DNA from: Pseudomonas turukhanskensis
GTDB taxonomy: Bacteria; Pseudomonadota; Gammaproteobacteria; Pseudomonadales; Pseudomonadaceae
DNA length: 64,000 nt
Reading direction: 5' to 3'
Assembly: GCF_027922365.1 (NCBI RefSeq)
Contig: NZ_BSFN01000008.1
Span: 62,001 to 126,000 of the forward strand
This document shows positions 44,896 through 64,000 of the stretch, in pieces. The notes under the pieces are model-generated. The model did no database searches. It was not told where the DNA came from and saw only the letters and a program-made list of their open reading frames with translations. Each line of letters opens with the position of its first letter. Position 1 is the first letter of the stretch. The position numbers and the translations under genes were made by a program.

Positions 44896-45070
44896 GGGCA
44901 AGCGCCTGGCTGATTTGGGCGCGCGATTCTAGGGAGCGAGTGAGGGCGGGATATTGATATGGGTCTATGAGGTGGCCCTTAAGTACACAGCCGAGCGTGT
45001 CGCCTTCTAGCAGGGAATACCGACAGCCAAACAGCATGTCGGCCCCTGCGAATTGCCGAGAAGCGCTGCC

Positions 45071-45439: not shown

Positions 45440-45440
45440 A

Positions 45441-46670: not shown

Positions 46671-46875
46671 CGTGATACTTCCTCGGCACAGGGGTGAAGC
46701 AGCACAAGACTACGGCCCGATAGAGCACGGGCTCACTATGGCGTGTTCGCCGATGTGTTGTGTAGTGGGCATTTGCGACGTCGTGGCTGGGTAAAGAGAG
46801 CCCTGGCGCGGTTTCAGGTTAGCAATGCCGCAAGCGCATTGCCGGGTAGCGAAGTGGTCGTCCGACGGCGAGTGC

Positions 46876-48003
46876 TTAGCCGATGGTTAGCTGATAGCGC
46901 GTGCTGCGCCCGCCGCCCGGCAGGCGTTCCAGCACGCCCTTTTCGAGCAGGTCGGCCAGGTGTCTGGTTGCTGTCGCTTTACTCACTTTGGCTACGGCCT
47001 GGTATTGGGCGGCGTTGATGCCGCTTTCGAAACCTTTCTCACCACCCTCCAGCAGTCGATTGATTACCTTCAATTGCTCGGCAGAAAGGGCGGTCGCCCG
47101 ATGCGTTTGCCAGAAGCGGGTTTTGCCGAGTACACGGTCGATCGTGGTCAGTGCATGAACGATGGACGCCAGCAACGTTTGCAGAAACCACGCCAGCCAC
47201 TCGGTGATGTCCAGCGTGCCTTTCTGCGTGCTCTCGAGAATCTGGTAATAGCCCTGGCGGTTATCGAGGATGCTCGCCGACATGGCATAGAAGCGAATGG
47301 CCTGGTGCTCGCCCTGGGCCAGCGCCAGGTCGGTAAGGGCGCGGGTCAGGCGGCCGTTACCGTCGTCAAACGGGTGCAAGGTGACGAACCAGAGGTGAGC
47401 GATACCTGCGCGTAGCAGAGGGTCCAGCTCGCGCGAGGGGCCGTTGAACCAATCGATGAAGACGCTCAGCTGTTGCTCCAGGCCGGCGCGCGGGGGAGCT
47501 TCGAAGTGCACCACCGGACGGTCCAGTCTGCCGGAAACCACGTGCATCGGCTCCTCGCCACGTAGCTCGCCTACACGCAGTTGATGCGTTGAAAGACGGG
47601 GGCCGGGTTCCGGAAACAACAAACGGTGCCATTGCAACAAGCGGTCGAGGCTTAACGGCTGCGCATAGTGCCTGGTGGCATCCAGCATCAGCTCAGCCAG
47701 GCCCTCGCTGCGCGCGGTCGGATGATTGCCCTGAGGTTCATCGACACCCAGTCGGCGGGCCAGGGAAGACCGTACCGAGCTGGCATTCAGCGCTTCGCCT
47801 TCGATGGCCGATGAGGTAATGATGTTTTGCAGCAGGGTGTCGAGCATGCTTTGCGCGTTGAGCTCTTCGTTTATGGCGCCCATTTTTCCGAGCAGTTGCC
47901 CCTGGCTGCCGGTGCATTGGCGCAGCAAATCAGCGAGGCGATCTGTTTGCCACGTGAAGGTCGGCCAAGCCTGCTGCTGCCAAATCCACTGCTGAAACAC
48001 CAT
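46876..48003 (-). CDS. Fic family protein with C-terminal winged-helix domain
   Basis: Protein of 375 residues. The Fic motif HPFDDGNGRLTR (from His210) is complete, so AMP transfer or a related activity is possible. An inhibitory motif SSAIEG (Ser64-Glu68-Gly69) lies N-terminal to the Fic core, which places it in class II. The C-terminal 70 residues (AEQLKVINRLLEGG... VSKATATRHLADLLEKGVLERLPGGGRSTRY) form a winged helix. ATG 48003 is chosen over an upstream start that would run through repeats in the promoter. Immediately upstream lies an array of inverted repeats, so it may bind its own promoter (inference). Confidence 0.92.
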   Translation of the reverse strand: MVFQQWIWQQQAWPTFTWQTDRLADLLRQCTGSQGQLLGKMGAINEELNAQSMLDTLLQNIITSSAIEGEALNASSVRSSLARRLGVDEPQGNHPTARSEGLAELMLDATRHYAQPLSLDRLLQWHRLLFPEPGPRLSTHQLRVGELRGEEPMHVVSGRLDRPVVHFEAPPRAGLEQQLSVFIDWFNGPSRELDPLLRAGIAHLWFVTLHPFDDGNGRLTRALTDLALAQGEHQAIRFYAMSASILDNRQGYYQILESTQKGTLDITEWLAWFLQTLLASIVHALTTIDRVLGKTRFWQTHRATALSAEQLKVINRLLEGGEKGFESGINAAQYQAVAKVSKATATRHLADLLEKGVLERLPGGGRSTRYQLTIG

Positions 48004-48017
48004 GGTCAATACACTCG

Positions 48018-48080
48018 TGAGCCGATTAAAACCTGTATTCGGCTCATTTTGTGAGCCGAATAGATAGCTTATTCGGCTCA
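48018..48080. promoter_or_regulatory. Operator-like array of four alternating half-sites upstream of fic
   Basis: Four copies of TGAGCCGAAT in alternating orientation: TGAGCCGAT at 48018-48026, ATTCGGCTCA at 48037-48046, TGAGCCGAAT at 48052-48061, and ATTCGGCTCA at 48071-48080. The middle two form a perfect palindrome with a five-base spacer. The array begins 15 bases upstream of the fic start codon and lies in its promoter region. Confidence 0.8.
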
Positions 48081-48162
48081 CGGGGAATTACAAGCTAATC
48101 CGCGGCGCATAGGGTTATTGGTGTTTAAACATGAGTGGATCTTGTGATAATCAAGAAAATAT

Positions 48163-48175
48163 TGAATTTGTCTCA
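48163..48175. promoter_or_regulatory. Possible MetR site upstream of metE
   Basis: TGAATTTGTCTCA fits the MetR pattern TGAA-N5-TTCA at 7 of 8 fixed positions, 57 bases upstream of the metE ATG. No metR gene is seen in the window, and one match of this length could be chance. Confidence 0.4.
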
Positions 48176-48232
48176 CTATGGCTGTGGTGGTGAGATGTGC
48201 GCCTTGAATTTTCATTGGAGCACACCCCCCAA

Positions 48233-50527
48233 ATGGCATTGGCCCACACCCTCGGTTTTCCCCGTATCGGCCGCGACCGTGAGCTGAAAAAAGCGCAAGA
48301 AGCCTTCTGGAAAGGTGAGCTTGATGAAGCAGGCCTGCGCGCCGTTGGCAGCGCATTGCGTGCTCGGCATTGGCAGGTGCAAAAAGACGCGGGCATCGAG
48401 CTACTGCCGGTGGGCGACTTCGCCTGGTACGACCAGGTGCTCACCCACTCGCTGACCTTCGGTGTGGTGCCCGAGCGTTTCCGCCCACACGATGGCAAGC
48501 CGAGCCTGCACACCCTGTTCGCCATGGCCCGCGGGGTAAGCGACAGCTGCTGTGGTGGCGCCCATGCCCAGGAAATGACCAAGTGGTTCGATACCAACTA
48601 CCACTACCTGGTGCCGGAGTTTTCCGCTGATCAGCAATTCACGCTGAGCTGGGAGCAGCTATTTGAAGAAGTGGCCGAAGCCAAGGCACTGGGCCATAAC
48701 GTCAAGCCGGTGGTGATCGGCCCGCTCACTTACCTGTGGCTGGGCAAAACCAAAGGCGCCGACTTCGACAAGTTGGACCTGCTGGAACGCCTGCTGCCGC
48801 TTTACGGCCAGATCTTCCAGCGCCTCGCCGCCCAGGGTGTGGAGTGGGTGCAGATCGACGAGCCGATTCTGGTGCTGGACCTGCCGCAAGACTGGAAGAA
48901 CGCCTACGAGCGCGCTTACAACCTGCTGCAAAGCGAGCCGCTGAAGAAGTTGGTCGCTACCTATTTTGGTGGTTTGGAAGACAACCTCGGGCTTGCGGCC
49001 AACCTACCCGTCGACGGCTTGCATATCGACCTGGTGCGCGCCCCCGAGCAGTTCCCCACCATTCTCGATCGCCTGCCGGCGTACAAGATTCTGTCGCTCG
49101 GCGTGGTCAACGGCCGTAATGTCTGGCGCTGCGACCTCGACAAGGCACTTGGCCTGCTGCGGTATGCCCAGGAGCGACTGGGTGAGCGCCTGTGGGTGGC
49201 GCCGTCGTGCTCGCTGCTGCACAGCCCGGTGGACCTGGCCCGTGAAGACAGGCTGGATGCCGAGCTGAAAAGCTGGCTGGCCTTTGCTGTGCAAAAGTGT
49301 GAGGAGGTGGCCATTCTGGCCCGTGGCGTCACCGCGCCTGATGCCCCCGACGTGCTCGAAGCGCTGGCCGCGAGCAATGCCGTACAGAAAAGCCGCGCCA
49401 CCTCGCCGCGTATTCACAAACCGGCGGTGCAGGCGCGTCTGGCGGCTGTGGGGCCGCAGGACAGTAAACGACTGTCGCCATTTCCCGTGCGTGCCGAGAA
49501 GCAACGTGCCGTTCTCGACCTGCCGCGTTTTCCGACCACCACCATCGGTTCTTTTCCGCAGACCACTTCAATTCGTCTGGCCCGCCAGTCGTACAAGCAA
49601 GGCAAGCTGAGCCTGGCCGAGTACACCGAGGCCATGTACAGCGAAATTCGGCACGCCGTGGATGTGCAGGAAAAACTCGGGCTCGACGTGCTGGTACATG
49701 GTGAAGCCGAGCGCAACGACATGGTCGAGTACTTTGCCGAGCAACTGGACGGCTACGTGTTTACCCGTTTTGGCTGGGTGCAGAGCTACGGTTCGCGCTG
49801 CGTAAAACCGGCGGTGATCTACGGTGACCTGAGCCGTCCGCACGCCATGACCGTCGACTGGATTCACTACGCCCAGGGCCTGACCACGAAAATCATGAAA
49901 GGCATGCTGACCGGCCCGGTCACCATGCTGATGTGGTCGTTTGCACGCGAAGATGTGAGCCGCGAAGTGCAGGCCCGGCAGTTGGCGCTCGCTATTCGTG
50001 ACGAAGTGGTGGAGCTGGAAGCCGCCGGCATCAAGGTCGTGCAGATCGACGAAGCGGCGTTCCGCGAAGGCCTGCCGCTGCGCAAGGAGCAATGGCAGCA
50101 CTACCTGGCCTGGGCCACCGAGTCATTCCGCCTGAGCGCCTCGGGCGTTCGGGATGAAACCCAGATTCATACCCACATGTGCTACAGCGAGTTCAACGAC
50201 GTGATCAAGGCCATCGCCGAGATGGATGCCGATGTGATCACCATCGAAACCTCGCGCTCGGACATGGAATTGCTGGATGCCTTCGAAGCCTTCGCCTATC
50301 CGAACGAGATCGGCCCGGGCGTTTACGACATCCACTCGCCGCGTGTGCCCAGCAGTGACGAGATGGCCAATCTACTGCGCAAGGCGGCGCAGCGTGTGCC
50401 GGCCAGTCGGTTGTGGGTAAACCCCGATTGCGGATTGAAGACGCGCAGTTGGCCGGAGACGGAAGCGGCGCTGGTGAACATGGTGGCGGCAGCGCGCACG
50501 CTGCGGGTGGAAATTTCAGCGGTATAG
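48233..50527 (+). CDS. metE: Cobalamin-independent methionine synthase MetE
   Basis: Enzyme of 764 residues, the normal MetE length. It transfers the methyl group of 5-methyltetrahydropteroyltri-L-glutamate to homocysteine. N-terminal [22 protein letters not shown], the catalytic-core start [22 protein letters not shown] and [11 protein letters not shown] carry the zinc and substrate ligands (His, Cys, Glu, Cys). ATG 48233 matches the family; an in-frame GTG at 48197 is less likely. Confidence 0.97.
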
Positions 50528-50560
50528 GCCGCGATGCAACGGCCTGGACGTCCTGCCTTG

Positions 50561-50626
50561 GTAGGGTGTGCTCCGCGCACCGAGCGATTCATGCCAGATC
50601 GCAATGGTGCGCAGAGCACATCCTAC
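50561..50626. repeat. Dispersed palindromic repeat, family C, copy 3
   Basis: 66-bp inverted repeat with arms GTAGGGTGTGCTCCGCGCAC and GTGCGCAGAGCACATCCTAC, between the convergent metE and histidine-phosphatase genes. Confidence 0.9.
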
Positions 50627-50680
50627 GAGATCAACAACGATTCATCCCAGGTCGCACCGAAGCACAGCTAAACGCCGTGG

Positions 50681-51229
50681 CTACACCCGTAATCGCCACT
50701 TGCCGTAGTAGCTCAATTCCACCATCGCCAGCGGCTCGACATCAATCCGCTGAGCGCTGGCCATCGAGCACTCCAGCACATGGGCCAGGGCCGCGCGAAT
50801 CACAAAGGGGTGAGTAACCGCCAGCCAATGCCCAGGCGTGCGAAAGCCGTCGAGCCATGCCCCCACCCGCGCGCGCACCGCGTCTAGCGACTCGCCGCCA
50901 TGGGGCGCTGCGCCGCTGTTGCTCAGCCATTGCTCCAGCGCCTCCGCTTGCTGTTCTTGCAGGGTTTTCAGGCTCAGCCCGCGCCAGTCACCCAGATCGC
51001 AATCAGCCAGTGCCGGCTCCAAAACGGCGTTGCTCGTCAGCAACGCGGCTGTCTGCCGGCTACGCAGTTCGAAGCCGCACCACACACCCTGGTGATCGCC
51101 GGCGCGTAACAACAACGCGCTGACCAACTCCGGCGCCACCGCTTCTATCGCTTCATCGTCCGCCAACCGTCCAAGCTTTTGCGCGGGCGTTCGGGCGTGG
51201 GCGATCAGGGTGATTCGCGTGGCTTGCAT
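50681..51229 (-). CDS. Histidine phosphatase superfamily protein, altered active site
   Basis: Protein of 182 residues with the phosphoglycerate-mutase-like fold: LRSRQTAALL, LGDWRGLSL, HGGESLDAVRARVGAWLD and LAVTHPFVIRAAL. The catalytic RHG motif is changed to AHA (IAHAR at 9-13), so the phosphate-binding Arg is lost while the nucleophile His11 and second His140 remain. It could be a weak phosphatase or a binding protein. It starts five bases after the OsmC-YcaO gene stop, so the two are one transcription unit. Confidence 0.78.
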   Translation of the reverse strand: MQATRITLIAHARTPAQKLGRLADDEAIEAVAPELVSALLLRAGDHQGVWCGFELRSRQTAALLTSNAVLEPALADCDLGDWRGLSLKTLQEQQAEALEQWLSNSGAAPHGGESLDAVRARVGAWLDGFRTPGHWLAVTHPFVIRAALAHVLECSMASAQRIDVEPLAMVELSYYGKWRLRV

Positions 51230-51234
51230 CGTGG

Positions 51235-53439
51235 TTACTCGCCGTGGGCGCTGACGTTCGCCCGCGCCGTGTGCAGTTTTTTTAAGCTGTCGATCAAGCG
51301 CAGGTGTCGATCCAGGCCTTCGAGTTTCATGCTGGTCGGCGTCAAGCCATAGAAGCGTACCGTGCCGTCTACCGAACCAATGGCCGCATCCATGCGCTCG
51401 TTGCCGAACATCTTGCGGAAGTTGACTTCGTAATCGGCCAGCTCCAAGTCCTCGTCCAGCTGCATTTCCAGCACCACGTTCACGGCCTGATAAAACAGAC
51501 CGCGCTCGACGGTGTTGTCGTTGTATTGCAGAAAGGCTTCCACCAGGTCCTTGGCTTGATCGTACTTTTGCAGGGCAAGGTAGATCAGCAGTTTCAGCTC
51601 GAGAATCGTCAGTTGGCCCCAGGCCGTGTTGTCGTCGAACTCGATGCCGATCAGGGTCTTGATTTCGGTGTAGTCATCCAGCTCGCTGTGTTCCAGCCCC
51701 TTGACCAGGTTGCGCAGGCCGACCTTGCTCAGGCTGTGCAAATTGAGGATGTCGGCGCGAAAATGCAGGGCTTTGTTGGTGTTGTCCCAGATAAGGTCTT
51801 CCACCGGATAGATTTCCGAATACCCCGGCACCAGGATGCGGCAGCCGGTGGCGCCGAGGTGTTCGTACACGGCCATATAGGCTTCTTTGCCCATGCCTTC
51901 GAGAATGCCGAACAGGGTGGCAGCTTCGTCGCTGTTGGAGTCTTCGCCCTGGCCGGAGAAATCCCATTCCACAAATTCGTACTCGGACTGGGCACTGAAA
52001 AAGCGCCACGACACAACGCCGCTGGAGTCGATAAAGTGCTCGACGAAATTGTTGGGCTCGGTCACCGCGTGGCCGGAGAACGTCGGCTGCGGAAGATCAT
52101 TCAGGCCTTCAAAACTGCGACCCTGCAACAGCTCGGTGAGGCTGCGTTCCAGCGCCACTTCGAAGCTTGGGTGGGCGCCGAACGAGGCGAACACGCCGCC
52201 GGTACGCGGGTTCATCAGCGTAACGCACATCACCGGGAATTCACCACCGAGCGAGGCGTCCTTGACCAGCACCGGAAAGCCTTGCTCTTCCAGGCCCTTG
52301 ATGCCGGCCAGAATGCTCGGGTATTTCTCCAGCACGTGCTGCGGTACATCCGGCAAGGCCATTTCGCCTTCGAGGATTTCGCGTTTTACCGCCCGCTCGA
52401 AGATTTCCGACAGGCACTGCACCTGCGCTTCGGCCAAGGTGTTGCCGGCGCTCATACCGTTGCTGAGGTACAGGTTTTCGATCAGGTTGGAGGGGAAGTA
52501 CACCACCTCGCCATCGGACTGGCGCACAAACGGTAGCGAAACGATGCCGCGCTGGGTGTTGCCGGAGTTGGTGTCGTACAGGTGCGAGCCGCGTAGCTCG
52601 CCCTCGCGGTTGAAAACCTTCAGGCAATAGGCGTCGAGAATTTCAGCGGGCAGTTCGTCATTGGGGCCCGGCTTGAACCAGCGCTCGTCCGGGTAATGCA
52701 CGAAGGGCGCATTGGCGATGTCTTCGCCCCAGAATTGATCGTTGTAGAAGAAGTTGCAGTTCAGCCGCTCGATAAATTCGCCCAGGGCCGAAGCCAGGGC
52801 GCCTTCTTTGGTCGCGCCTTTGCCGTTGGTAAAACACATCGGCGATTGCGCATCGCGGATATGCAGCGACCACACGTTGGGCACGATATTGCGCCACGAA
52901 GCGACCTCAATCTTCATGCCCAGGCCAGCCAGAATGCCGGACATGGTGGCGATGGTCTGCTCCAGCGGCAGGTCCTTGCCGGCGATAAAGGTGCTGGTGC
53001 TGGTGTCTGAATCCAGCATCAACAAGGCCTGGGCGTCTGCGTCCAGGTTGTCTACTTCCTCGATCACGAACTCGGGGCCGGCCTGCACCACCTTCTTCAC
53101 GGTGCAGCGGTCGATGGAACGCAGGATGCCTTGGCGGTCCTTGGGCGAAATATCCGCCGGCAACTCGACCTGAATCTTGAAGATTTGCTGGTAGCGGTTT
53201 TCCGGATCGACAATGTTGTTTTGCGAGAGGCGAATGTTCTCGGTGGGGATGTCGCGCGTCTGGCAGTACAGCTTTACAAAGTACGCCGCACACAGCGCCG
53301 ACGACGCCAGAAAGTAATCGAACGGCCCGGGAGCCGAGCCATCGCCCTTGTAGCGAATGGGCTGGTCAGCCACCACCGTGAAGTCATCGAACTTGGCTTC
53401 AAGTCGGAGGTTGTCGAGAAAATTGACCTTGATTTCCAT
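51235..53439 (-). CDS. OsmC-YcaO fusion protein
   Basis: Protein of 734 residues. Residues 1-140 are an OsmC domain with the redox pair Cys50 (SSALCAAY) and Cys112 (DRCTVKK). From about 150 a YcaO domain follows, with the ATP-binding GKGATKEGALASALGEFIER (about 207-225), NTLAEAQVQCLSEIFERAVKREI, and a helical, TPR-like C terminus (ILELKLLIYLALQKYDQAKDLVEAFLQY). YcaO enzymes use ATP to activate amide backbones, and E. coli YcaO is linked to RimO-dependent methylthiolation of ribosomal protein S12. The OsmC part suggests thiol peroxidase or thiol handling. ATG 53439 is chosen because MEIKVNFLDN starts the OsmC fold. A known architecture in Pseudomonas and Shewanella as I recall; activity is not established. 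Confidence 0.9.
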   Translation of the reverse strand: MEIKVNFLDNLRLEAKFDDFTVVADQPIRYKGDGSAPGPFDYFLASSALCAAYFVKLYCQTRDIPTENIRLSQNNIVDPENRYQQIFKIQVELPADISPKDRQGILRSIDRCTVKKVVQAGPEFVIEEVDNLDADAQALLMLDSDTSTSTFIAGKDLPLEQTIATMSGILAGLGMKIEVASWRNIVPNVWSLHIRDAQSPMCFTNGKGATKEGALASALGEFIERLNCNFFYNDQFWGEDIANAPFVHYPDERWFKPGPNDELPAEILDAYCLKVFNREGELRGSHLYDTNSGNTQRGIVSLPFVRQSDGEVVYFPSNLIENLYLSNGMSAGNTLAEAQVQCLSEIFERAVKREILEGEMALPDVPQHVLEKYPSILAGIKGLEEQGFPVLVKDASLGGEFPVMCVTLMNPRTGGVFASFGAHPSFEVALERSLTELLQGRSFEGLNDLPQPTFSGHAVTEPNNFVEHFIDSSGVVSWRFFSAQSEYEFVEWDFSGQGEDSNSDEAATLFGILEGMGKEAYMAVYEHLGATGCRILVPGYSEIYPVEDLIWDNTNKALHFRADILNLHSLSKVGLRNLVKGLEHSELDDYTEIKTLIGIEFDDNTAWGQLTILELKLLIYLALQKYDQAKDLVEAFLQYNDNTVERGLFYQAVNVVLEMQLDEDLELADYEVNFRKMFGNERMDAAIGSVDGTVRFYGLTPTSMKLEGLDRHLRLIDSLKKLHTARANVSAHGE

Positions 53440-53672
53440 GGGATTACCACAAGCGCGCAAGCTGAATTGGCGGCCATTATCCGGGATTTCAGCGGCAATG
53501 GGGCGTGGCGCGTACACGGGCCGGGTCTGCCGGCGCTCATCGTTCAAAGTCAGGCCCCCATAACCGGCTATGCAAATCAACTTCTTGCGTCTGATAGCGT
53601 CTAAGGCCAACCTGAGAATGAAAGCCGGATCGCATTGCCGAACGTTCTACTACTTCCACGGATTACTCTGCC

Positions 53673-54431
53673 ATGAGCGAACTGCCTCCCAAGCCTACTT
53701 GTGCAGCCTGTCAGTACGGCGCTGCCCTTGAATTCGATTTCAGCATGGCCTTTCAGCCTATCGTCGATATCCGCGACCGCAGTTTATATGCCTATGAAGC
53801 GCTGGTGCGCGGTACCGATGGCAGCGGTGCGGCGTCGGTTTTGGGGCGGGTTAACGACCAGAATCGTTATGCGTTCGACCAGGCGTGTCGGGTAAAGGCC
53901 GTAGAGCTGGCCAGCCGGCTGCAAATACCCTGTCTGCTGAGCATCAATTTTCTGCCCAACGCCGTATACAAAGCGGCCACTTGTATCCGCGCCACGCTGG
54001 ATGCCGCACGCCGCTTCAACTTCCCAACCCAGCGCATCATTTTCGAGCTGACCGAGGGCGAGGAGCTACAGGACAAGCAGCACCTCAAAGACATCATTGA
54101 CGAGTACCACAAGCATCAATTCCGCACCGCCATCGACGACTTCGGCGCCGGTTATGCGGGGCTGAACCTGCTGGCCGAATTTCAGCCGGACATCATCAAA
54201 CTGGATATGGCGTTGGTGCGCGATATCGACACCCATACCGTGCGCCAGGCGATTGTGCAGGGCATTCTGGGCGTGTGCCGGGCGCTTGATATCGAAGTGA
54301 TTGCCGAGGGGATCGAGTCGGTGGGTGAGCTGCGCCACCTGCACGGGCTGGGCATCAATCTGTTTCAAGGCTATCTGTTTGCCCGCCCTGCGTTTGAGGC
54401 CCTGCCGGCGGTGGACTGGCCGACGCTCTGA
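53673..54431 (+). CDS. Stand-alone EAL domain cyclic-di-GMP phosphodiesterase
   Basis: Protein of 252 residues that is almost entirely one EAL domain. Residues 42-44 are the EAL triad (YEALVRG); SINFLPN, FELTEGEE, AIDDFGAGYAGL (with the DD pair), KLDMALVRDI and AEGIES carry the metal and catalytic residues, so it should be active. A CAAC motif near the N terminus (residues 10-13) could bind metal or sense redox. Divergent from the OsmC-YcaO gene. Confidence 0.93.
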   Translation: MSELPPKPTCAACQYGAALEFDFSMAFQPIVDIRDRSLYAYEALVRGTDGSGAASVLGRVNDQNRYAFDQACRVKAVELASRLQIPCLLSINFLPNAVYKAATCIRATLDAARRFNFPTQRIIFELTEGEELQDKQHLKDIIDEYHKHQFRTAIDDFGAGYAGLNLLAEFQPDIIKLDMALVRDIDTHTVRQAIVQGILGVCRALDIEVIAEGIESVGELRHLHGLGINLFQGYLFARPAFEALPAVDWPTL

Positions 54432-54451
54432 CGGTGCGGGCCCAACGCGGG

Positions 54452-54745
54452 TTACGTTTCTACGCCTTCAGCCGGTAAAACCATTGGTGCCTGCGAATCG
54501 GGTTTTGCGGGGGCATCGTCTTTCTGCTCGGCTGGCTTGCCCAGTAATTCATTGGCCGATTTCTGCGCTTTATCGATCTGCTCGTTCAGCGCTGTTACGG
54601 TTTCGCCAATCGCTTCCGTGGCTAGCTCCTGTGCCGCCGCGGTGGCCTTGTCAGAGAGTTTTTCTGCGGAGTCTTGCGCAAGGTCGCAGCCGCTCAAGCC
54701 AACCAGGGTCACGAGTGTAAAGGCAGCAATGAGGGGTTTCTTCAT
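54452..54745 (-). CDS. Small lipoprotein, hypothetical
   Basis: Lipoprotein of 97 residues: signal peptide with lipobox LSGC (Cys20), then an Ala/Lys/Glu-rich amphipathic helix (SAEKLSDKATAAAQELATEAIGE and following) and a Pro/Ala/Asp-rich tail. The start ATG at 54745 follows GGAGATACC. The helical repeat pattern is common in small envelope lipoproteins; no function can be given. Confidence 0.8.
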   Translation of the reverse strand: MKKPLIAAFTLVTLVGLSGCDLAQDSAEKLSDKATAAAQELATEAIGETVTALNEQIDKAQKSANELLGKPAEQKDDAPAKPDSQAPMVLPAEGVET

Positions 54746-54800
54746 GGGAGGTATCTCCTGCGGTGGCGACCGCCCCGGTAGCTCCGGGGCGGCCGGCTGT

Positions 54801-55802
54801 TCAACGTGGGTCGGATTGGCTAGTGGCGGGTGCGTCGTGGCGGGTCTTCCACATCGACAGCAGCACGCCACCGAGTAGCAGGCCCACGGTGACGCTCAGC
54901 GAAATTACCGGCGGGGTTTTACCGATGATGCCAACCAGGAATATCTTGCAGCCGATAAATACCAGCACCAGGGCCAGGGCGTATTTGAGGTAAGCGAAAC
55001 GGTGAATCATCGCCGCCAGGGCGAAGTACAAGGCACGCAGGCCAAGGATGGCGAAGATGTTCGAGGTGTAGACGATAAATGGGTCCTGAGTGATGGCGAA
55101 AATCGCCGGCACGCTGTCTACGGCGAACACCAGGTCAGCACACTCGATCAACACCAATGCCAGAAGCAGCGGCGTGGCCCAAAGCACGGTACGGCCATCA
55201 GCATTGGGCTGACGCACAAAAAAACGGCCTTCGTGCAGACGGTCGGTAACGCGCATACGGCGGCGCAAAAATTTCACCAGTGGGTTCTGCGCCAGGTCCG
55301 GGTGATCGTCTACCTTGCTGAACAGCATCTTTACGCCGGTGAACAGCAAGAACGCGCCAAACACGTAGAGAATCCAGCTGAACTCGGCGATCAGCGCCGC
55401 ACCCAGGCCGATCATCAACGCCCGCAGCACAATCACCCCGAGAATGCCCCAGAACAGCACCTCGTGCTGGTACTTACGCGGGATGGCCAGGAAGCTGAAG
55501 ATCATCGCCATCAGAAACACGTTGTCCATCGACAACGATTTTTCGATCAGAAAGCCGGTGTAGTAATCCATGCCGGCGTCGCCGCCCTTAACCTGCCAGA
55601 CCCACAGGCCGAACAGAAGGCCGGCGGTGATATAGCCAGCCGAAAGCAGCAAACTTTCCTTCACCCCGATTTCGCGATGCTCACGGTGAAGCACCCCGAG
55701 GTCGAAGACCAGCAGGCTGATAACAATGGAAAGGAAGACAAGCCACAACCAGGTGGCAGTGCCGAGGAATTCGGCAAGAAAAAACGGTTCCAGGGTGCTC
55801 AT
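54801..55802 (-). CDS. TerC/Alx family membrane protein
   Basis: Membrane protein of 333 residues with about nine helices. FLIEKSLSMDNVFLMAMIFSFLAIP and IECADLVFAVDSVPAIFAITQDPFIVYTSNIFAILGLRALYF are the TerC metal-binding signatures with conserved acidic residues in helices. Alx-type members export manganese; tellurite resistance is another association. The start follows a strong TTAGGAGGGG site. The leader is highly structured. Confidence 0.92.
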   Translation of the reverse strand: MSTLEPFFLAEFLGTATWLWLVFLSIVISLLVFDLGVLHREHREIGVKESLLLSAGYITAGLLFGLWVWQVKGGDAGMDYYTGFLIEKSLSMDNVFLMAMIFSFLAIPRKYQHEVLFWGILGVIVLRALMIGLGAALIAEFSWILYVFGAFLLFTGVKMLFSKVDDHPDLAQNPLVKFLRRRMRVTDRLHEGRFFVRQPNADGRTVLWATPLLLALVLIECADLVFAVDSVPAIFAITQDPFIVYTSNIFAILGLRALYFALAAMIHRFAYLKYALALVLVFIGCKIFLVGIIGKTPPVISLSVTVGLLLGGVLLSMWKTRHDAPATSQSDPR

Positions 55803-55816
55803 GAGGCCCCTCCTAA

Positions 55817-55913
55817 GTCGAGTTGTACAAACTGCAACTCCGACATGGCAGCTTTAAAAAAGCTGTCAGAGGGGCCCGGCGTCGCCGCGACAATTTATCA
55901 GGCGAAGCCGGGC
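55817..55913 (-). promoter_or_regulatory. Structured leader between ilvE and terC (three hairpins)
   Basis: Three stems: GTCGAGTTG / CAACTCCGAC at 55817-55844 with one bulged base, directly before the ribosome-binding site; GGCAGCTT / AAGCTGTC at 55847-55867; and a 13-bp stem with one mismatch, GCCCGGCGTCGCC / GGCGAAGCCGGGC, at 55874-55913. The last may terminate ilvE; the others may control terC. It did not clearly match the yybP-ykoY manganese riboswitch by eye. Confidence 0.5.
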
Positions 55914-55994
55914 ACTCAAGGGTTTACTCGTTGCAAAGTGTCTCAGCGTGGCGGCCCTGACGTGGCAATAGCCAGCGCCGGGGCCACCGCGGGA

Positions 55995-57017
55995 TCACAC
56001 TTTTACGATCCAGCCAGCAGGCGCTTCGATGTCGCCGCACTGAATGCCGGTCAGCTCGCGATACAGGCGCTTAACAACCGGGCCGGCTTCGGTCTCGCTA
56101 TGGAACACGTGCAGCGTGTCGCCGAACTTGATGCCGCCGATCGGCGTGATTACCGCTGCGGTGCCGCAGGCGCCGGCTTCTTTGAAGCGGTCCAGCTCGT
56201 CGATGCGTACATCGCCTTCGCTGACCTTGAGGTTCAGACGATCGCGCGCCAATTCCATCAGCGACAGACGGGTGATACCCGGCAGTACCGATGACGAGCG
56301 CGGCGTGACGAATTCGTCGTCGCGGGTGATGGCGAAGAAGTTGGCCGAGCCCACTTCCTCGATCTTGCTGTGGCTGGACGGGTCCAGGTAGATACAGTCG
56401 GCAAAGCCTTGTTCTTTGGCTTGTGCGCCTGGCATCAGGCTGGCGGCGTAGTTGCCACCGACCTTGGCGGCACCGGTGCCGTTGGGGGCCGCGCGGTCAT
56501 AGCCGGAAATCACGAAGTTGTGCGGGGTCATGCCGCCCTTGAAATAAGCGCCGACCGGGATGCAGAACACGCTGAAGATAAATTCCGGCGCAGTGCGCAC
56601 GCCAATGTTCTCGCCCACGCCGATCACGAACGGACGCAGGTACAGCGCGCCGCCGGAGCCGTATGGCGGAATGAAGCGCTCGTTGGCCTTGACCACCTGA
56701 CGGCACGCTTCGATGAACTGCTCGCTGGACACCTGCGGCATCAGCAGACGGCCGCAGCTGCGCTGCATGCGCAGGGCGTTCTGGTCGGGGCGGAACAGGT
56801 TGATCGAACCGTCTTTGCAGCGATAAGCCTTCAGGCCTTCAAAGCACTGTTGGCCGTAATGCAGGGCAGTGGAGCCTTCGCTGATGTGCAGGGTGGCGTC
56901 TTCGGTCAGGGTGCCGCTATCCCACTGGCCATCACGCCAGTGCGACAGGTAACGGAAGTCGGTCTTTACGTAGCTGAAGCCCAGTGTGCTCCAGTCGATG
57001 CTAGTGGATTGGCCCAT
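55995..57017 (-). CDS. ilvE: Branched-chain amino acid aminotransferase IlvE
   Basis: PLP enzyme of 340 residues, the longer (eukaryote-like) BCAT form. It transaminates the 2-keto acids of leucine, isoleucine and valine. LHYGQQCFEGLKAYR, GTGAAKVGGNYAASL (PLP lysine region), EVGSANFFAI, PGITRLSLMELA and GTAAVITPIG are all typical. The gene lies upstream of terC on the same strand. Confidence 0.95.
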   Translation of the reverse strand: MGQSTSIDWSTLGFSYVKTDFRYLSHWRDGQWDSGTLTEDATLHISEGSTALHYGQQCFEGLKAYRCKDGSINLFRPDQNALRMQRSCGRLLMPQVSSEQFIEACRQVVKANERFIPPYGSGGALYLRPFVIGVGENIGVRTAPEFIFSVFCIPVGAYFKGGMTPHNFVISGYDRAAPNGTGAAKVGGNYAASLMPGAQAKEQGFADCIYLDPSSHSKIEEVGSANFFAITRDDEFVTPRSSSVLPGITRLSLMELARDRLNLKVSEGDVRIDELDRFKEAGACGTAAVITPIGGIKFGDTLHVFHSETEAGPVVKRLYRELTGIQCGDIEAPAGWIVKV

Positions 57018-57255
57018 GATGATCTCGTTGGGTGGTTACGATAAGTCGGTAACTGGCAGCCGGTTTTTCAGGGGGCTTCTACTGTAGCGCCGCAAACGGC
57101 GTCAGCGCCTATGCCTGAGTGGCGCACCTGCGCCGAAGAACCTGGCCATGGACGCCCATTGGAATCTGTCCGGGCGGAAAAAGAAAGCCTCGCATGCGGA
57201 CCACTCAGCAGAACGGGAACGCCTGGCGGTAGCGCTGCCCCCAGGCTTTGCCTGC

Positions 57256-58395
57256 CTACCGCTGCATGCCCATGATGCGATTCCCTATATCAATCCCCCA
57301 ATCGCTCATCGCATTGCCCTCGCTCAACTGCTGTCGCTCCCAATCCCTCAAGCCTTGCTTCAGGTCGCCAGGGGCGCTCAGCACCTTGGCCAGGGTTAGC
57401 GCATCGGTTGCCGCTTTTGCGGTACTGCCGGCGGTGTGCGGGCGGGGAATAAAGGCTGCATCGCCCACCAGCATCACCCGGTCGAACACCATGCGTGGAA
57501 CCCTGAGGTCCAGAATGGACTGCACAAAAATCTCGTCGGTTTGCTGCACCAGTTCGAGAAACGCTGGGTTCAAGCGCACTTCGGCCAAACGGCGAAACGC
57601 TCGGTCCTGCTGGGCGCTTAGCGCGCCCGGGGGAATGGAGTGTTCACGGCGGCGGCCGGTGTTGTCGGTAAGCAGCGCATCCAGTGGCGCGCCCGCCGCG
57701 GCCTTCAGGTACCACAGCCAGTTATGGCGGCGCGCACCGACAGCGGTTGCACCGTCAATGCCGGGCACCTTGTATTCCAGCATCAAGGATTCAGGGTCCT
57801 GCTGAAAAACGAAGTCGTCGCACAGTGCGTCGGCGGTCGCGGCGCTAATCGCCGTTTCGTTCACCAGGCCGCGCCACACCACATACCCTGAGTAGGTGGG
57901 CGTGACACCAGGAAGCAAAAGACGGCGAACGGTCGAGCCACCGCCGTCGGCGCCGATAATGATGTCGCCAGCAGCGCTGGTGCCATCTTCAAAGCGCGCC
58001 ATCACGCCCTGCTCATCCTGACTCAGCCCCACCAGTTTTTTGCCGCGGTGATAGTGCGCTTCAGGCAAGGCGTTGAGCAGATGCTGGTACAGGGTGTTCC
58101 ACGATGTCTGCGTTTGTGGGGCGTAGTGCTGGTGTTGCACGCCGCCATCGCGGTTCAGATAGGTTCTATTGATGGAACGAACACCCAGCGCGGTGCCGGG
58201 GTTGATGCCGGCAAACTTGAACGCTTGCAGCACTTCATGCTGCAGCACGATGCCGCCGCCACGGCTATCGAGGGTAGCCGGCGAGCGTTCGAAAACCTCG
58301 ACCTGCCAACCGACGGCGCGCAACGCGGTGGCGGTAAACAGGCCGCCCAGCGACCCGCCGATGATCAATGCGGTGCCGCGGCGCTGTTCAGACAT
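57256..58395 (-). CDS. FAD-dependent monooxygenase (aromatic hydroxylase type)
   Basis: Flavoprotein of 379 residues of the PHBH/2,6-dihydroxypyridine hydroxylase-like group. GGSLGGLFTATALRA is the dinucleotide-binding motif, GADGGGSTVRR the second FAD motif, and VMLVGDAAFIPRPHTAGST the C-terminal GD motif. It hydroxylates an unknown aromatic substrate using NAD(P)H and oxygen. ATG 58395 lies inside the MFS gene end (8-base overlap); a TTG at 58401 is an alternative. The transporter and LysR context suggests a small catabolic or detoxification unit. Confidence 0.9.
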   Translation of the reverse strand: MSEQRRGTALIIGGSLGGLFTATALRAVGWQVEVFERSPATLDSRGGGIVLQHEVLQAFKFAGINPGTALGVRSINRTYLNRDGGVQHQHYAPQTQTSWNTLYQHLLNALPEAHYHRGKKLVGLSQDEQGVMARFEDGTSAAGDIIIGADGGGSTVRRLLLPGVTPTYSGYVVWRGLVNETAISAATADALCDDFVFQQDPESLMLEYKVPGIDGATAVGARRHNWLWYLKAAAGAPLDALLTDNTGRRREHSIPPGALSAQQDRAFRRLAEVRLNPAFLELVQQTDEIFVQSILDLRVPRMVFDRVMLVGDAAFIPRPHTAGSTAKAATDALTLAKVLSAPGDLKQGLRDWERQQLSEGNAMSDWGIDIGNRIMGMQR

Positions 58396-59599
58396 GTTCA
58401 ACCCCCAGTGCGGCGGTTTTCTTCGCTTTGGTGTGTAGCCAGAACGCGGCCAGCGCCACGGCCGGCAGGGTCATTCCAACACCGGCGATCAGGCTCCAGC
58501 CGCCGTGATCATAGAGCCAGCTGGCGCCTATGGAGCCGGCCGCGCCGCCGATAAAGATGCTGGTCATATAGAGCGCGTTCAGCCGGGCGCGCTCGGCAGG
58601 GTTCAGGGCATAGACCTCGCGTTGGCCCAGCACCATGTTCATCTGCACGGCGAAGTCCAAGAGCACGGCGGTTAGCGCCAAGGCAACGAGGCGATGACCG
58701 GGCAACACCCAGATGCTGGAAAAACTCAGCACCGCCAGCGTCATGGCCAGCCAAGAGGCGCGATGGGTATGGCCGGCATCGGCCAGGCGTCCGGCAATCG
58801 GCGCCGCTATTGCACCCATGGCGCCCATCAAGGCGAAAAGCGCGATCTGGCTTTGGGACAGATGCAGCTCGCGGGTCAGCTCCAGCGGCACGGCGGTCCA
58901 GAACAGGCTGAACGCCGCAAACATCAAGGCCTGATAGATCGAGCGCCGGCGCAGCACGTTTTCTGTGCGAAACAGGCGCTCCAGCGACACCAGCAGCTGC
59001 AGGTAGGAGGCCTTATGCGCCGGTTGGCGCTCCGGCAAGGTGAACCTGACCACCACGATGATTACCAGCATCAGTGCGCCTGCTGCGAAAAACACCGCGC
59101 GCCAGCCGAAGTGGTCGGCTGCCAGACTGGAGAGCGGTCGTGCCAGCAGAATGCCGAGTAACAGTCCGCCCATGATCGAACCCACCACTCGCCCACGGGT
59201 GGCATCCGGCGCAAGGTGGGCGGCCAGCGGAATCAGCATCTGCACGGAAACCGAGCTGAAGCCGATCAGCGCCGAGACGACAAAAAACGCCGTCGCATGT
59301 TCAGTCAAACCCGCCGCGGCCAGGCTGAGGGCGCTTACGGCCAGGGTCGCCATCATCAGCCGACGGTTCTCCAGCAGATCAGCCAGCGGCACCAGAAACA
59401 GCAGCCCGAGGGCGTAGCCAATCTGGGTGAGCGAGACGATCAGGCTGGCGCTGCTGCTCGACAGGCCGATATCAGGGGCGATCATGTCGATGATCGGTTG
59501 TGCGTAATAGATATTGGCGACGATGGCGCCGCAGCAAAACGCAAAGAGCAGCACGAGGCCGCTGGTCAGCGCTGTTTGTTGAGTGGCGTTGCCTTTCAT
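58388..59599 (-). CDS. MFS transporter
   Basis: Transporter of 403 residues with 12 predicted helices. VPLADLLENRRLM is the loop 2-3 motif; ALMGAMGAIAAPIAGRLADAGH is the repeat of it in the second half. It resembles the YnfM/drug efflux branch. Its substrate is probably linked to the monooxygenase encoded downstream. Divergent from a LysR gene at 59798. Confidence 0.9.
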   Translation of the reverse strand: MKGNATQQTALTSGLVLLFAFCCGAIVANIYYAQPIIDMIAPDIGLSSSSASLIVSLTQIGYALGLLFLVPLADLLENRRLMMATLAVSALSLAAAGLTEHATAFFVVSALIGFSSVSVQMLIPLAAHLAPDATRGRVVGSIMGGLLLGILLARPLSSLAADHFGWRAVFFAAGALMLVIIVVVRFTLPERQPAHKASYLQLLVSLERLFRTENVLRRRSIYQALMFAAFSLFWTAVPLELTRELHLSQSQIALFALMGAMGAIAAPIAGRLADAGHTHRASWLAMTLAVLSFSSIWVLPGHRLVALALTAVLLDFAVQMNMVLGQREVYALNPAERARLNALYMTSIFIGGAAGSIGASWLYDHGGWSLIAGVGMTLPAVALAAFWLHTKAKKTAALGVEHV

Positions 59600-59797
59600 G
59601 CGAGTGACTCCGAGAACCGTTGGACGGTCACGAAGATAGGGGCGCCGGGCTGAGGAGAAAATATGACGCTGGCGCAACGTCGCATTGCGTTTTGCGCAAC
59701 GGCTGCCGTGGTGGTTAGGGCTGAAATACCCGCAACTAAAGACCGCCGAGGTGCAGTGTTGTAACGTTCACTCCTTCCTACAATGCAGGCGCACAGC

Positions 59798-60730
59798 ATG
59801 GACAAGCTGCTGGCAATGAAGATGTTTATTCAGGCCGTGGACTCCAAGGGTTTTTCTTCAGCCGCGCGGGCGCTGGGCCTGGCTACTTCGTCAGTTACGC
59901 GGATGATCGACAGCCTGGAAGCCGAACTGGGCACGGTGCTGCTCAACCGCTCCACGCGTCAGATCACCCTGTCCGACGCCGGCGCCGCCTACTACCGCAA
60001 AGCGCGTGATGTACTGGACGCGGTGGCAGACGCCGATGCGTCGGTCTTTGATCGTGGCGAAGCCCCGGCCGGGCAGTTGCGCATTTCCGTGCCGGTGACG
60101 TTTGGCAGCCGCCTGATCGCGCCGCACATTGCCGCACTGTTGCAGCGCTATCCGAAGCTTGTTCTCGATATGACCTTGAGCGACTCCATCGTCGAGCTTC
60201 TGGGCGAGCGAGTAGACCTGGCCATCCGCCTGGGCTCGGCGGCGCCGATGGACGATGTGGTCAGTCGCCCGCTCGGCACGTTTCAACGCTACGCGGTCGC
60301 CAGCGCCGATTACCTGGATACATGCGGTTTTCCCGAGCAGCCGACAGACCTTTTGCAGCACGAGTGCCTGCGCTTCAGCTATGGCGAGAAACAGCAGGTC
60401 TGGACCTTTCTCAAAGGCGAAGAGGAGTTGCGCGTACCGGTGCAGGGGCGCTTCAAAAGCAACAACATCGAAGTGCTGCGCGACGTCGCCCTGGCTGGCG
60501 GTGGTATTTGCCTGTTACCCGATTGGCTGGCCGACGATGACATTCGCAGCGGCCGGTTGACTCGCCTGTTCGGGCCATATGCCATCAACCCCAACAGCAC
60601 CAGTTCGGTCATTTCGGCGCTGTACCTGCCCAATCATCGGGGCTCGAAACGGGTAAATGCGTTTATCGATTTTCTTACCGAACTGCTTGAGCCCGAGGCG
60701 CCACCCCCGTGTGCGGCTGAGCTGAGCTGA
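59798..60730 (+). CDS. LysR family transcriptional regulator
   Basis: Regulator of 310 residues, of the CrgA/AaeR-like group (MDKLLAMKMFIQAVDSKGFSSAARALGLATSSVTRMIDSLE). The effector domain is normal. It is divergent from the MFS/monooxygenase pair, its probable target. The last codons and stop are built from a GCTGA tandem repeat (60716-60740), so the C terminus may vary between strains. Confidence 0.93.
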   Translation: MDKLLAMKMFIQAVDSKGFSSAARALGLATSSVTRMIDSLEAELGTVLLNRSTRQITLSDAGAAYYRKARDVLDAVADADASVFDRGEAPAGQLRISVPVTFGSRLIAPHIAALLQRYPKLVLDMTLSDSIVELLGERVDLAIRLGSAAPMDDVVSRPLGTFQRYAVASADYLDTCGFPEQPTDLLQHECLRFSYGEKQQVWTFLKGEEELRVPVQGRFKSNNIEVLRDVALAGGGICLLPDWLADDDIRSGRLTRLFGPYAINPNSTSSVISALYLPNHRGSKRVNAFIDFLTELLEPEAPPPCAAELS

Positions 60731-60740
60731 GCTGAGCTGA
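60716..60740. repeat. Pentanucleotide tandem repeat (GCTGA)x5
   Basis: Five perfect units of GCTGA. The LysR stop codon (60728-60730) lies inside the repeat. Change in unit number would shift the reading frame only for the last residues. Confidence 0.95.
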
Positions 60741-60850
60741 GCGGGGCGTTGCCTTTTGCGCAACGCAACGTTGCGCCGCCAACGGCTTCTACGAAAACCC
60801 GGCGATGCCTACCGTGCTGGTGTGAACACCCTTTAACCATGGAGAAAGCC

Positions 60851-61510
60851 ATGAGCGAACATTTGGCCACCGGCGATGACTCATTCATCCAGATAGTTTC
60901 CGACTTCATCTGCCCCTGGTGCTGGATCGGCGAAGAAAATCTGCAGCGTGCGCTGGCGGCGACCGAGCGGCGTGACGACCGCCGAATCATCTTTGTGCCC
61001 TACCAATTAAACCCGCACATGCCAGCAGCGGGCATGGACCGCAAAGCGTATCGCTCGGCCAAGTTCGGCAGCTGGGCCCATAGCCAGGCGCTGGACGCGC
61101 AGGTGGCTGAAGCGGGGCGCGCCGTGGGGCTGAACTTTGCCTACGACCGCGTGAAGAAAACTCCGAACACCCTTGCCGCCCACCGGTTGGTGTGGCGCGA
61201 ACAACACGCCGGCAGAAATACCGTGCCGTTGGTTCGCGCCCTCTTCAACGCCTACTTCGCGCAAGGGCAGGATATCGGCGATATCAATGTGCTCGCCGAC
61301 ATTGCTGGCGAGACGGGGCTGGACCGGCTCGACGCCCTTAGCTTTCTTGTTTCCAGTGAAGGCCGCGCCGAGGTGCTGGCGCTCGAAGCCACCTTCAGAG
61401 TCGCCGGCATTCGCTCGGTGCCAAGCATTCATATTGGTGAGCAGGTAATCAGCGGTGCGCAGCCGGTGGACGTGATGCTTGAAGTGTTACGTCGCTGCCA
61501 GCCAGCATGA
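60851..61510 (+). CDS. DsbA-family oxidoreductase (FrnE-like)
   Basis: Thioredoxin-fold protein of 219 residues. SDFICPWCWIGEENL contains the CPWC redox motif of FrnE/2-hydroxychromene isomerase-like proteins. NTLAAHRLVW and AGIRSVPSIHIGEQVISGAQP complete the fold. No signal peptide, so it is cytoplasmic. ATG 60851 follows GGAGAAAGCC; an upstream ATG at 60839 is in frame. It is co-directional with the LysR gene, 120 bases downstream. Confidence 0.9.
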   Translation: MSEHLATGDDSFIQIVSDFICPWCWIGEENLQRALAATERRDDRRIIFVPYQLNPHMPAAGMDRKAYRSAKFGSWAHSQALDAQVAEAGRAVGLNFAYDRVKKTPNTLAAHRLVWREQHAGRNTVPLVRALFNAYFAQGQDIGDINVLADIAGETGLDRLDALSFLVSSEGRAEVLALEATFRVAGIRSVPSIHIGEQVISGAQPVDVMLEVLRRCQPA

Positions 61511-61592
61511 AACACAAGCCGCCATGCGCCGGCTGGCCTATGCTTGGCACTCAATCTATTCAACCCTCAATCTGTTCAAGCAAGGAGTGCCT

Positions 61593-61868
61593 GTGGCCAG
61601 GATGACGTTTCCCTATGCGTGCGCGCGCCTGAAGGAATATTTCTATCCCATGGGCTTTGAGGCCGGTTTGGATTCCCCCGCATCGATGACCGCCCGCGTG
61701 TTCGATAAGAAAACCGGAGAAGACTTCGCCGTGCTCGCTGGCCTGAACTGGGGGCCGGACACCACCGATGACGATCTGGCCGAAATCATCGAGCTGATTG
61801 AAGAAGAGATGCACGCGCAAGAGTTTGTGCATGTGCCGAAGAAGGGGGATTCGTTGTTGGATGAGTGA
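61593..61868 (+). CDS. Hypothetical small acidic protein
   Basis: Protein of about 91 residues I do not recognise. The start is probably GTG 61593 after AAGGAG; ATG 61602 is an alternative. It has an acidic helical C-terminal half (TTDDDLAEIIELIEEEMHAQEF). No membrane segment. It is downstream of the DsbA-like gene in the same direction. Confidence 0.7.
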   Translation: MARMTFPYACARLKEYFYPMGFEAGLDSPASMTARVFDKKTGEDFAVLAGLNWGPDTTDDDLAEIIELIEEEMHAQEFVHVPKKGDSLLDE

Positions 61869-61941
61869 ATCGGTCGCGCGTAGACGCAGCGGCTTGGGCA
61901 GGGCGAACCTTGATCCACCTGCAGTTCTAAACGCCAGCCAA

Positions 61942-61978
61942 CAAAAAAGGCCTTCGATTTCTCGAAGGCCTTTCTTTT
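61942..61978 (-). terminator. Rho-independent terminator downstream of tRNA-Thr fragment
   Basis: Perfect 12-bp stem AAAGGCCTTCGA / TCGAAGGCCTTT with a TTTC loop, and A and T runs on the two sides. Read on the minus strand it is the former terminator of the tRNA-Thr gene; on the plus strand it can serve the small acidic protein gene. Confidence 0.93.
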
Positions 61979-61981
61979 ATA

Positions 61982-62031
61982 TGGTGCCGGCACCAGGAAT
62001 CAAACCCGGGACCTACTGATTACAAGTCAGT
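61982..62031 (-). pseudogene. tRNA-Thr(TGT) 3' fragment, probable attachment site
   Basis: The minus strand from 62031 to 61982 reads as the 3' 50 bases of a bacterial tRNA-Thr: anticodon stem and loop with TGT anticodon, variable loop, T arm, acceptor strand and CCA. The 5' half (D arm and 5' acceptor) is missing and replaced by unrelated AT-rich DNA. The T loop has TTTGATT in place of TTCGATT, losing invariant C56, consistent with lack of function. The intact terminator to its left shows this is the original downstream flank of the tRNA gene. Confidence 0.88.
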
Positions 62032-62170
62032 GACAAAGTCATGTTATTCACAGGTCATTTGGTTAAAGCTAACAGCATTGACGATTTGTAAATGCCTGAA
62101 TATAAAGGTTTTTAACGTATTTATTGGCTTTCAAGACTGAATATAGGCATTGATTACTATTTAGTCAAAA

Positions 62171-62222
62171 CCCTACCCCAGCCCTACCCCGAGCGCTATA
62201 ATCCCTACCCTAACCCTACCCC
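62171..62222 (+). promoter_or_regulatory. Phased CCCTACCC direct repeats upstream of integrase
   Basis: Four copies of CCCTACCCC (third copy CCCTACCCT) start at 62171, 62182, 62203 and 62214, i.e. with spacings of 11, 21 and 11 bases, about one, two and one helical turns. They end 21 bases before the integrase ATG. Likely binding sites for integrase arms or a regulator; binding partner is inferred. Confidence 0.8.
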
Positions 62223-62243
62223 AGAAACGGTCAGGATTTCGGT

Positions 62244-63614
62244 ATGACGACGCGCACGGCCATGAACGAACACACCCTGAAACGGCTCAAATATGATCCC
62301 GCAAAAGGCCGTGTCGAACTCCTTGATCCCCCTATGCCCGGACATGGCACATTCGGCGTGCGGGTCAACAAGACATGCAAAAGTTTCATCTTGCTCTACA
62401 GCTTTCATAACCATCCTCGTCGCCTGACGCTGGGTACCTACCCTGACTTGTCGCTTGCTGAGGCACGCGCCAAGGCCGCGCAGGCTGTCGAACTACTTAA
62501 GCAGGGCATCGATCCGGGACAGAAGAAGATTGTCGAGTTGGTCGAGTATCGTACGAGTCCGACTTTTGAGGAGGCCGTTGAAAGCTATCTGGAATGGGCC
62601 CGGACTAATAAGAAATCGTGGCGTGAGGATGAACGCATGCTGCGCACTGAGTTTGTGCCTCACCTGGGTAGAACCAAAATTGGTGATGTCAGGCGCAAGC
62701 AGGTGGTGGCGTTGCTCGATGAAAAGGCCAAGACCGCCCCCGTGCAGGCCAACCGTATGCTGGCCGTGATCCGCAAGATGTTCAACTTCTGCGTCGAGCG
62801 CGAGATTCTCGATGCCACACCCTTGGTGCAGATCAAGAAAGTAGCTAAGGAAACGCCACGGGAGCGCAGCCTCAATCGGCACGAGCTGGTTTGGTTTTTG
62901 CACCAGTTGGCCGGCGCCTCGCTGACTCAAAACACGCGCTTTGCTCTGTTGCTGAGCTTGATGCTGGCGCAGCGCTCGGGGCGCATCGTGGCCATGCGCT
63001 GGGTCGACTTTGATCTCGAAGACCGGATCTGGGATCGCAGTGGCAAGTTCGAGAAGAACAACAACCCCATTGCCATCCCGCTCTCGGACGATTTGTTGAG
63101 CATTTTGAAATATCTGCGCGAGCAACAGGTTCAGAAAGTGATGTCGCATGACCCTGAGCGCTGGGTGAATAGTAAAGCGCTGCCCAGTCCTGGGCAGTAT
63201 GTGTTTCCAGGGCGGTGGCCCACTAAACCGCAGACACAGCCTTCGCTAAACCGCGCGATGCGTCGCTTCTACGATGACTACGTGAAGGATTCAGATCGGG
63301 TCGAAGAAGAGAGCCTGCTGCGCGTTGCCGAAGGCTATCCGCGTCCAACCGTGCATGACCTGCGACGCACGGCGACCACGCACATGTCCAAGCACGGCCT
63401 GGGCAAGGAAGTCCGTAGTCGCATTCTTAACCACAAGGACCTTTCGGTAGATGCGATTTATGACCGCTATGCCTACTTTGAAGAAAAGGCAGAGGCTCTC
63501 CAGGGGTGGCATGCCTATCTGAAGGGGTTGCTGCAGAAGGAGTTTGGTGACGTGGATTGGGTGGAGTTTTATGGGCGACGCATGGAGTCTGTTCCGTCTA
63601 GTGAAGACAATTAG
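62244..63614 (+). CDS. Tyrosine-type site-specific integrase (P4-like)
   Basis: Integrase of 456 residues. N-terminal DUF4102-like arm-binding region (FGVRVNKTCKSFILLYSFHNHPRRLTLGTYPDLSLAEARAKA in part), SAM-like core-binding domain (about 105-200), and catalytic domain with Arg244 (AQRSGR), His371 and Arg374 (HDLRRTATTHM), His397 (ILNHKD) and Tyr406 (IYDRY). All catalytic residues are present, so it should be active. It catalyses integration and excision at the tRNA-Thr site. Start ATG 62244; ATG 62262 is an alternative. Confidence 0.94.
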   Translation: MTTRTAMNEHTLKRLKYDPAKGRVELLDPPMPGHGTFGVRVNKTCKSFILLYSFHNHPRRLTLGTYPDLSLAEARAKAAQAVELLKQGIDPGQKKIVELVEYRTSPTFEEAVESYLEWARTNKKSWREDERMLRTEFVPHLGRTKIGDVRRKQVVALLDEKAKTAPVQANRMLAVIRKMFNFCVEREILDATPLVQIKKVAKETPRERSLNRHELVWFLHQLAGASLTQNTRFALLLSLMLAQRSGRIVAMRWVDFDLEDRIWDRSGKFEKNNNPIAIPLSDDLLSILKYLREQQVQKVMSHDPERWVNSKALPSPGQYVFPGRWPTKPQTQPSLNRAMRRFYDDYVKDSDRVEEESLLRVAEGYPRPTVHDLRRTATTHMSKHGLGKEVRSRILNHKDLSVDAIYDRYAYFEEKAEALQGWHAYLKGLLQKEFGDVDWVEFYGRRMESVPSSEDN

Positions 63615-64000
63615 GAATAAGTCCACGTTCTGAGTGCAGGCTAGCGGGTGCCTTAGCTCCGTGCTGTTGGTTAATGTGTAGTCGTCATTGTCCTGAGCTG
63701 TCTCTAGGTCAGGAGTGTGTATCTACAGGTTAAATGTTGACGGGTGCGGTGCTGCCGGCGTTCCTGCTTCATGAACCCCGAATGTCTGCTTTCCCATTCA
63801 TGCGGTTGCTGCATGCGGCTGATGGAGTCGCTATTACCGACCGATCTACTAGAGTTGAGAATGAAGCGTTACGTGCTAGCTTCTCTGTGACGCTTTGACC
63901 TCCGCACTGTTTAGCCGGCCTCCTTGCCTTAGGGGCACCAAGGCCGTGCAGCGATGCTGGCATAGGATTGCGTTGTGTGGTGTTTTCTGAAATTTTTAAT
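63615..64000. other. Right-end region without recognised gene
   Basis: 386 bases downstream of the integrase show no convincing coding frame, RNA gene or repeat. A small minus-strand frame at 63769-63963 has no ribosome-binding site or recognisable sequence. Confidence 0.5.

Follow-up and report, generated by a model that had tools for sequence, protein, structure and literature searches.

A truncated tRNA gene beside an integrase raises the question of what was inserted there, and how far the insertion extends. Such a junction lies near the right end of the window analysed in this study, a 64,000-nucleotide stretch of the Pseudomonas turukhanskensis genome (contig NZ_BSFN01000008.1, hereafter C8, positions 62001-126000; the contig is 244 kb long and belongs to a 5.88-Mb draft of 61 contigs). 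An earlier note had described a 50-bp 3' piece of tRNA-Thr as the edge of one genomic island. The present analysis retained the island boundary but replaced the single island with two elements, because the 52.6 kb from the fragment to the intact tRNA proved to hold two elements in tandem. The fragment is very probably the outer attachment site of two integrative elements that entered one tRNA-Thr(TGT) gene one after the other, element X first and then element Y. This reading draws on several observations made directly in the sequence, namely both boundaries, a remnant of the tRNA in the middle, two integrase genes, an empty site in a relative, and ends like that of X standing against intact tRNAs in other genomes.

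The fragment covers the tRNA from the anticodon stem to the encoded CCA, with its 3' side pointing left, and the numbering used here is backed by the 52:62 stem pair, which covaries among relatives (Table 1). It occurs once in the window, where ARAGORN called no tRNA gene, and none of the shuffles of the window contained a match with three or fewer mismatches. The likeness to tRNA ends at 62032, and the sequence to the right departs from any tRNA, in agreement with the earlier statement that the 5' half had been replaced by element DNA carrying an integrase. Only the C56-to-T change distinguishes the fragment from the intact copy. C56 lies on the host side of the crossover and is retained both in the relative G120 and in the other fragments, so that the substitution most likely postdates displacement. 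The mutation had been correctly noted before and taken as a sign of decay; this fits, but a single substitution proves little, and the fragments beside int1 relatives keep C56.

Table 1. Features at the right edge of the window (window coordinates unless preceded by C8, which marks contig coordinates)
Feature	Position	Strand	Remarks
DUF gene	61602-61865		reading frame
Native terminator of tRNA-Thr, hairpin and T run, directly left of fragment	about 61942-61979	minus	same sequence adjoins intact tRNA-Thr in G120
Displaced 3' piece of tRNA-Thr(TGT), nt 27-76	61982-62031	minus	49/50 against intact tRNA-Thr, C8:176581-176656
C56-to-T change in fragment	62002	minus	sole difference from intact copy
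Start of element X	62032-64000		continues to C8:148349 beyond the window
CCTACCCC repeats, probable arm-type integrase binding sites	62171-62222	plus	matching repeats at other end of X, C8:148274 and 148285
int1, tyrosine integrase of X, 456 aa	62244-63614	plus	Pfam Phage_integrase, Arm-DNA-bind_3 and Phage_int_M above cut-off

The earlier note had predicted an intact tRNA-Thr with a near-identical 50-bp end at the other boundary, and a search of the same genome located it on the minus strand of the contig, 52.6 kb to the right of the fragment. A third copy of the tRNA 3' end, 23 bp long (nt 54-76), was found outside the window at C8:148350-148372, beside a different terminator, so that three copies stand in one contig in a common orientation. 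A 700-base query, made by placing the 50 bp between its left and right flanks, was then searched against 199 genomes of the genus. G120 matched this query across the join; its tRNA-Thr is intact, identical at 76 of 76 positions, and is followed directly by the terminator of the window, with 99% identity to G120 over window positions 61940-62031. Because the terminator is joined to an intact tRNA in G120, it is the native terminator, as had been proposed, and the fragment represents the end of the chromosomal gene, displaced from the rest. The suggested comparison with relatives lacking the element therefore yielded an empty site. A fragment-integrase junction fixed in all relatives had been named as the finding that would speak against an island; int1 was found in 5 of 398 congeners, and the tRNA is uninterrupted in both G120 and G320. 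To the right of the tRNA, the neighbouring gene is in synteny with G120 and four further relatives.

By Islander-type definitions, a fragment paired with an intact tRNA is the standard signature of an island (PMC4383910), and here an intact tRNA stands at one end and a displaced fragment at the other. In addition, tyrosine integrases are on board, int1 and int2 both scoring above the Pfam cut-off, and the site is uninterrupted in G120. An extra copy of the attachment site, the 23-bp remnant, separates two integrase-bearing elements, which is the mark of a tandem array. Both element X and the array as a whole have the 50-bp piece as their outer attachment site.

Element X is 24.3 kb in size. 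On the plus strand, the octamer CCTACCCC occurs only at the two ends of X (55.9 kb examined), with three copies at the left and two at the right that follow an 11-bp step within each group, a pattern suggesting that these repeats are probably the arm sites of the integrase. Among int1 relatives from named genomes (66-92% identity), 10 of 12 have a tRNA-Thr 3' fragment shortly before int1. The relatives in Pseudomonas, Stutzerimonas and Atopomonas adjoin the same tRNA-Thr piece while the host DNA on the far side differs, and the distance from fragment to int1 is nearly constant across many genomes and hosts. Furthermore, two or three copies of the tRNA 3' end are present in five int1-bearing genomes and one copy in four genomes without int1. 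When int1 was compared with plasmid and phage records, none reached 60% identity, and the best among the matches listed was 30%. ARAGORN called 77-nt tRNA-Thr genes beside int1 in L041, L042, L043, L045 and L087; each of these starts within the 50-bp fragment and extends beyond it into element DNA, and all were set aside as probable false genes.

The right end of X was equally informative. Its last 100 bp are 77-88% identical to DNA lying directly against intact tRNA-Thr in G202, G381, G288, G063 and L046, as against 34% for the Y end in the same alignment. What is conserved, and what directly borders the intact tRNA-Thr in these five cases, is an X-type end made of CCTACCCC repeats and a terminator. 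G202 and G381 are complete genomes with the X-type layout, and the Atopomonas locus L046 (9739-13923) contains a complete 4.1-kb version in the order fragment, int1, HipA-type gene, X-type end and intact tRNA. The cargo of this minimal int1 element consists of little beyond an HTH gene and the HipA-type gene. An X-type end also borders intact tRNA-Thr in G320 (L080), G166 (L057) and G060 (L058), three genomes with no close int1, and such an end alone is therefore no proof of an int1 element; these ends are possibly remnants, or belong to elements with a more distant integrase.

The position of the int1 crossover was mapped by comparing fragments, omitting L050 and L051, which are int1 relatives without a recognisable fragment. 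The loci L041, L042, L043 and L045 have the same left-end element sequence, and their fragments vary at nt 52, 59 and 62; as these nucleotides differ under the same element end, that part is host-derived. At the opposite side, the fragments of L046, L049 and L085 leave the tRNA sequence at nt 27, 28 or 31, which makes that part element-derived. The comparison places the probable int1 crossover between nt 31 and nt 52, a segment that includes the anticodon loop.

Element Y extends from C8:148373 to the tRNA (28.2 kb) and carries genes for int2, AlpA, a TrfA-like protein, the type I restriction proteins HsdR, HsdS and HsdM, a resolvase and a transposase, together with a HipA-like gene. Inside its hsdM-hsdS-hsdR operon (C8:162844-170470, L009) lies a SIR2-domain gene whose best PADLOC match is ThsA. 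The two integrases share 21% identity in an alignment that disregards L049, whose sequence had been read out of frame. With a P4-type integrase beside the tRNA 3' end and an AlpA regulator, Y has the features of a P4-like island. Its tRNA-proximal end is also present in five further genomes, next to tRNA-Thr(TGT) or tRNA-Thr(CGT) and accompanied by int2 relatives; one of these genomes, G244, has an 18-bp tRNA remnant 17 kb away. Conjugation families gave no match among the proteins scanned, a set that covered part of the ORFs.

Three other explanations of the locus were weighed. The whole 52.6 kb might be a single island with an integrase at each end, in which the middle 23-bp piece is a chance match or an internal relic. 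Such an island would be bracketed by the outer 50-bp repeats, as is the case, and int1 and int2 do lie at opposite ends; however, the middle piece is accompanied by a terminator and CCTACCCC repeats, just as at the ends adjoining intact tRNA-Thr in other int1 genomes, and int2 relatives sit at tRNA-Thr and leave short remnants, which renders this explanation improbable. It is very unlikely that the fragment is a long-fixed relic left by an element since lost, with no connection to the adjacent int1. The C56 change does suggest a copy that has been free of selection for some time, but the spacing between the fragment and int1 relatives is nearly constant across many genomes and hosts, the present genome has the matching far end, and paired copies of the tRNA end are found in int1 genomes.

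An assembly error that joined unrelated tRNA-bearing segments is worth considering in a draft genome of 61 contigs. Nevertheless, the three copies lie in the same orientation in one 244-kb contig, the right flank is syntenic with G120, and the X-type layout is also seen in two complete genomes, G202 and G381, so that hardly any weight can be given to such an error.

On the preferred reading, that of X and Y inserted in tandem, int1 would have carried out an exchange in the anticodon region, between the chromosomal gene and the copy of the tRNA 3' half carried by X. X would thereby have brought in a new 3' half and a new terminator, leaving the tRNA intact, and would have pushed the original 3' half and its native terminator to the far end. 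Y, by means of a distantly related integrase whose core is shorter (about 23 bp, from the T-loop to CCA), would have entered the regenerated tRNA later and moved X away from it. New tRNA insertions sit next to the tRNA, and X-type ends in other genomes stand directly against an intact tRNA; here the X end borders the 23-bp remnant and Y sits between this end and the tRNA. Judged by position, Y is therefore probably younger than X.

The insertion of Y would have split the inner attachment site of X, so that the right end of X would retain only nt 54-76, while the part needed by int1 would now lie 28 kb away at the tRNA, without the right arm sites of X. Because one of its core sites would have been split in this way, X is predicted to be trapped, without an efficient exit until Y leaves, whereas Y could leave alone. 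The mobility of both elements is likewise predicted from sequence features. A broader proposal is that int1 represents a distinct integrase family of elements in Pseudomonas, Stutzerimonas and Atopomonas, with a tRNA-distal integrase gene and a replacement terminator of their own, in which a later element locks an earlier one by splitting its core and islands at this tRNA exit only in reverse order of arrival; this proposal is tentative and less likely than not to hold.

Tandem islands at tRNA-Thr are known in Pseudomonas aeruginosa (PMC4739549). Like the X/Y array, pHS87b, an 11.2-kb integrative plasmid of this species with a P4-family integrase, uses the tRNA-Thr 3' end as its integration site, the repeat there being 45 bp long, and in strain NCGM 1984 a pHS87b-like region lies 36 kb from tRNA-Thr, behind a second insertion (PMC4739549). 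However, pHS87b is a plasmid with other genes, and the likeness drawn here follows its published description. Members of the PAGI-97A family resemble the present case in having a P4-type integrase at the 3' border, instead of the 5' one, and a 49-bp repeat of the tRNA 3' end, but they occupy tRNA-Pro(ggg) of P. aeruginosa, carry other cargo and come with no description of a tandem (PMC8373256). The composite island CGI48 of Shewanella putrefaciens likewise has two integrase-bearing islands at one tRNA locus, and its second island has restriction-modification and hipAB, which Y parallels with its own restriction-modification and HipA-like genes. In CGI48 the second island is nested within the first, whereas Y lies between X and the tRNA (PMC8978831). 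The arrangement described here is of a well-known kind, although the integrase family of int1 is little described, and the case is ordinary but cleanly resolved. The tRNA-Thr site is a hotspot, at least two copies of the 44-bp 3' part being present in 47 of the 393 congeneric genomes sampled. What began as a guess from a single edge has become a fully bounded, two-step insertion history at a hotspot tRNA, and the unequal core sites (about 50 and 23 bp) offer a definite case in which the trapping of one element by another could be tested.

The left flank has a history of its own. A search for a shared left junction found none of the sampled relatives to have the DNA left of the terminator, a point against the preferred reading. 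Directly beyond the tRNA and terminator, G120 has a U32 peptidase gene, while in the window this gene is 17 kb further left; the left flank has therefore been rearranged, by something outside the present explanation. The 17-kb block (44968-61940) that separates this peptidase gene from the native terminator contains HD-GYP, Fic, metE, ilvE, TerC, MFS and DsbA-like genes, and those parts of it that have matches in G120 are dispersed there among four locations. The left edge of the block showed no tRNA remnant, and a third tRNA remnant in the left flank is unsupported, as no match to the tRNA end longer than 14 bp occurs elsewhere in the window.

The cargo of X also deserves description. Its c-di-GMP and HDOD part comprises a receiver-GGDEF-EAL protein, an Hpt protein, a receiver-HDOD protein and an Hpt-receiver-GGDEF protein, and four large histidine kinases with PAS, GAF or CHASE domains are present as well. 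This phosphorelay and c-di-GMP cluster occupies C8:126061-142996 (L007, L008), and diverged relatives of it (66-73%) were observed in 18 of the 193 other congeneric genomes sampled.
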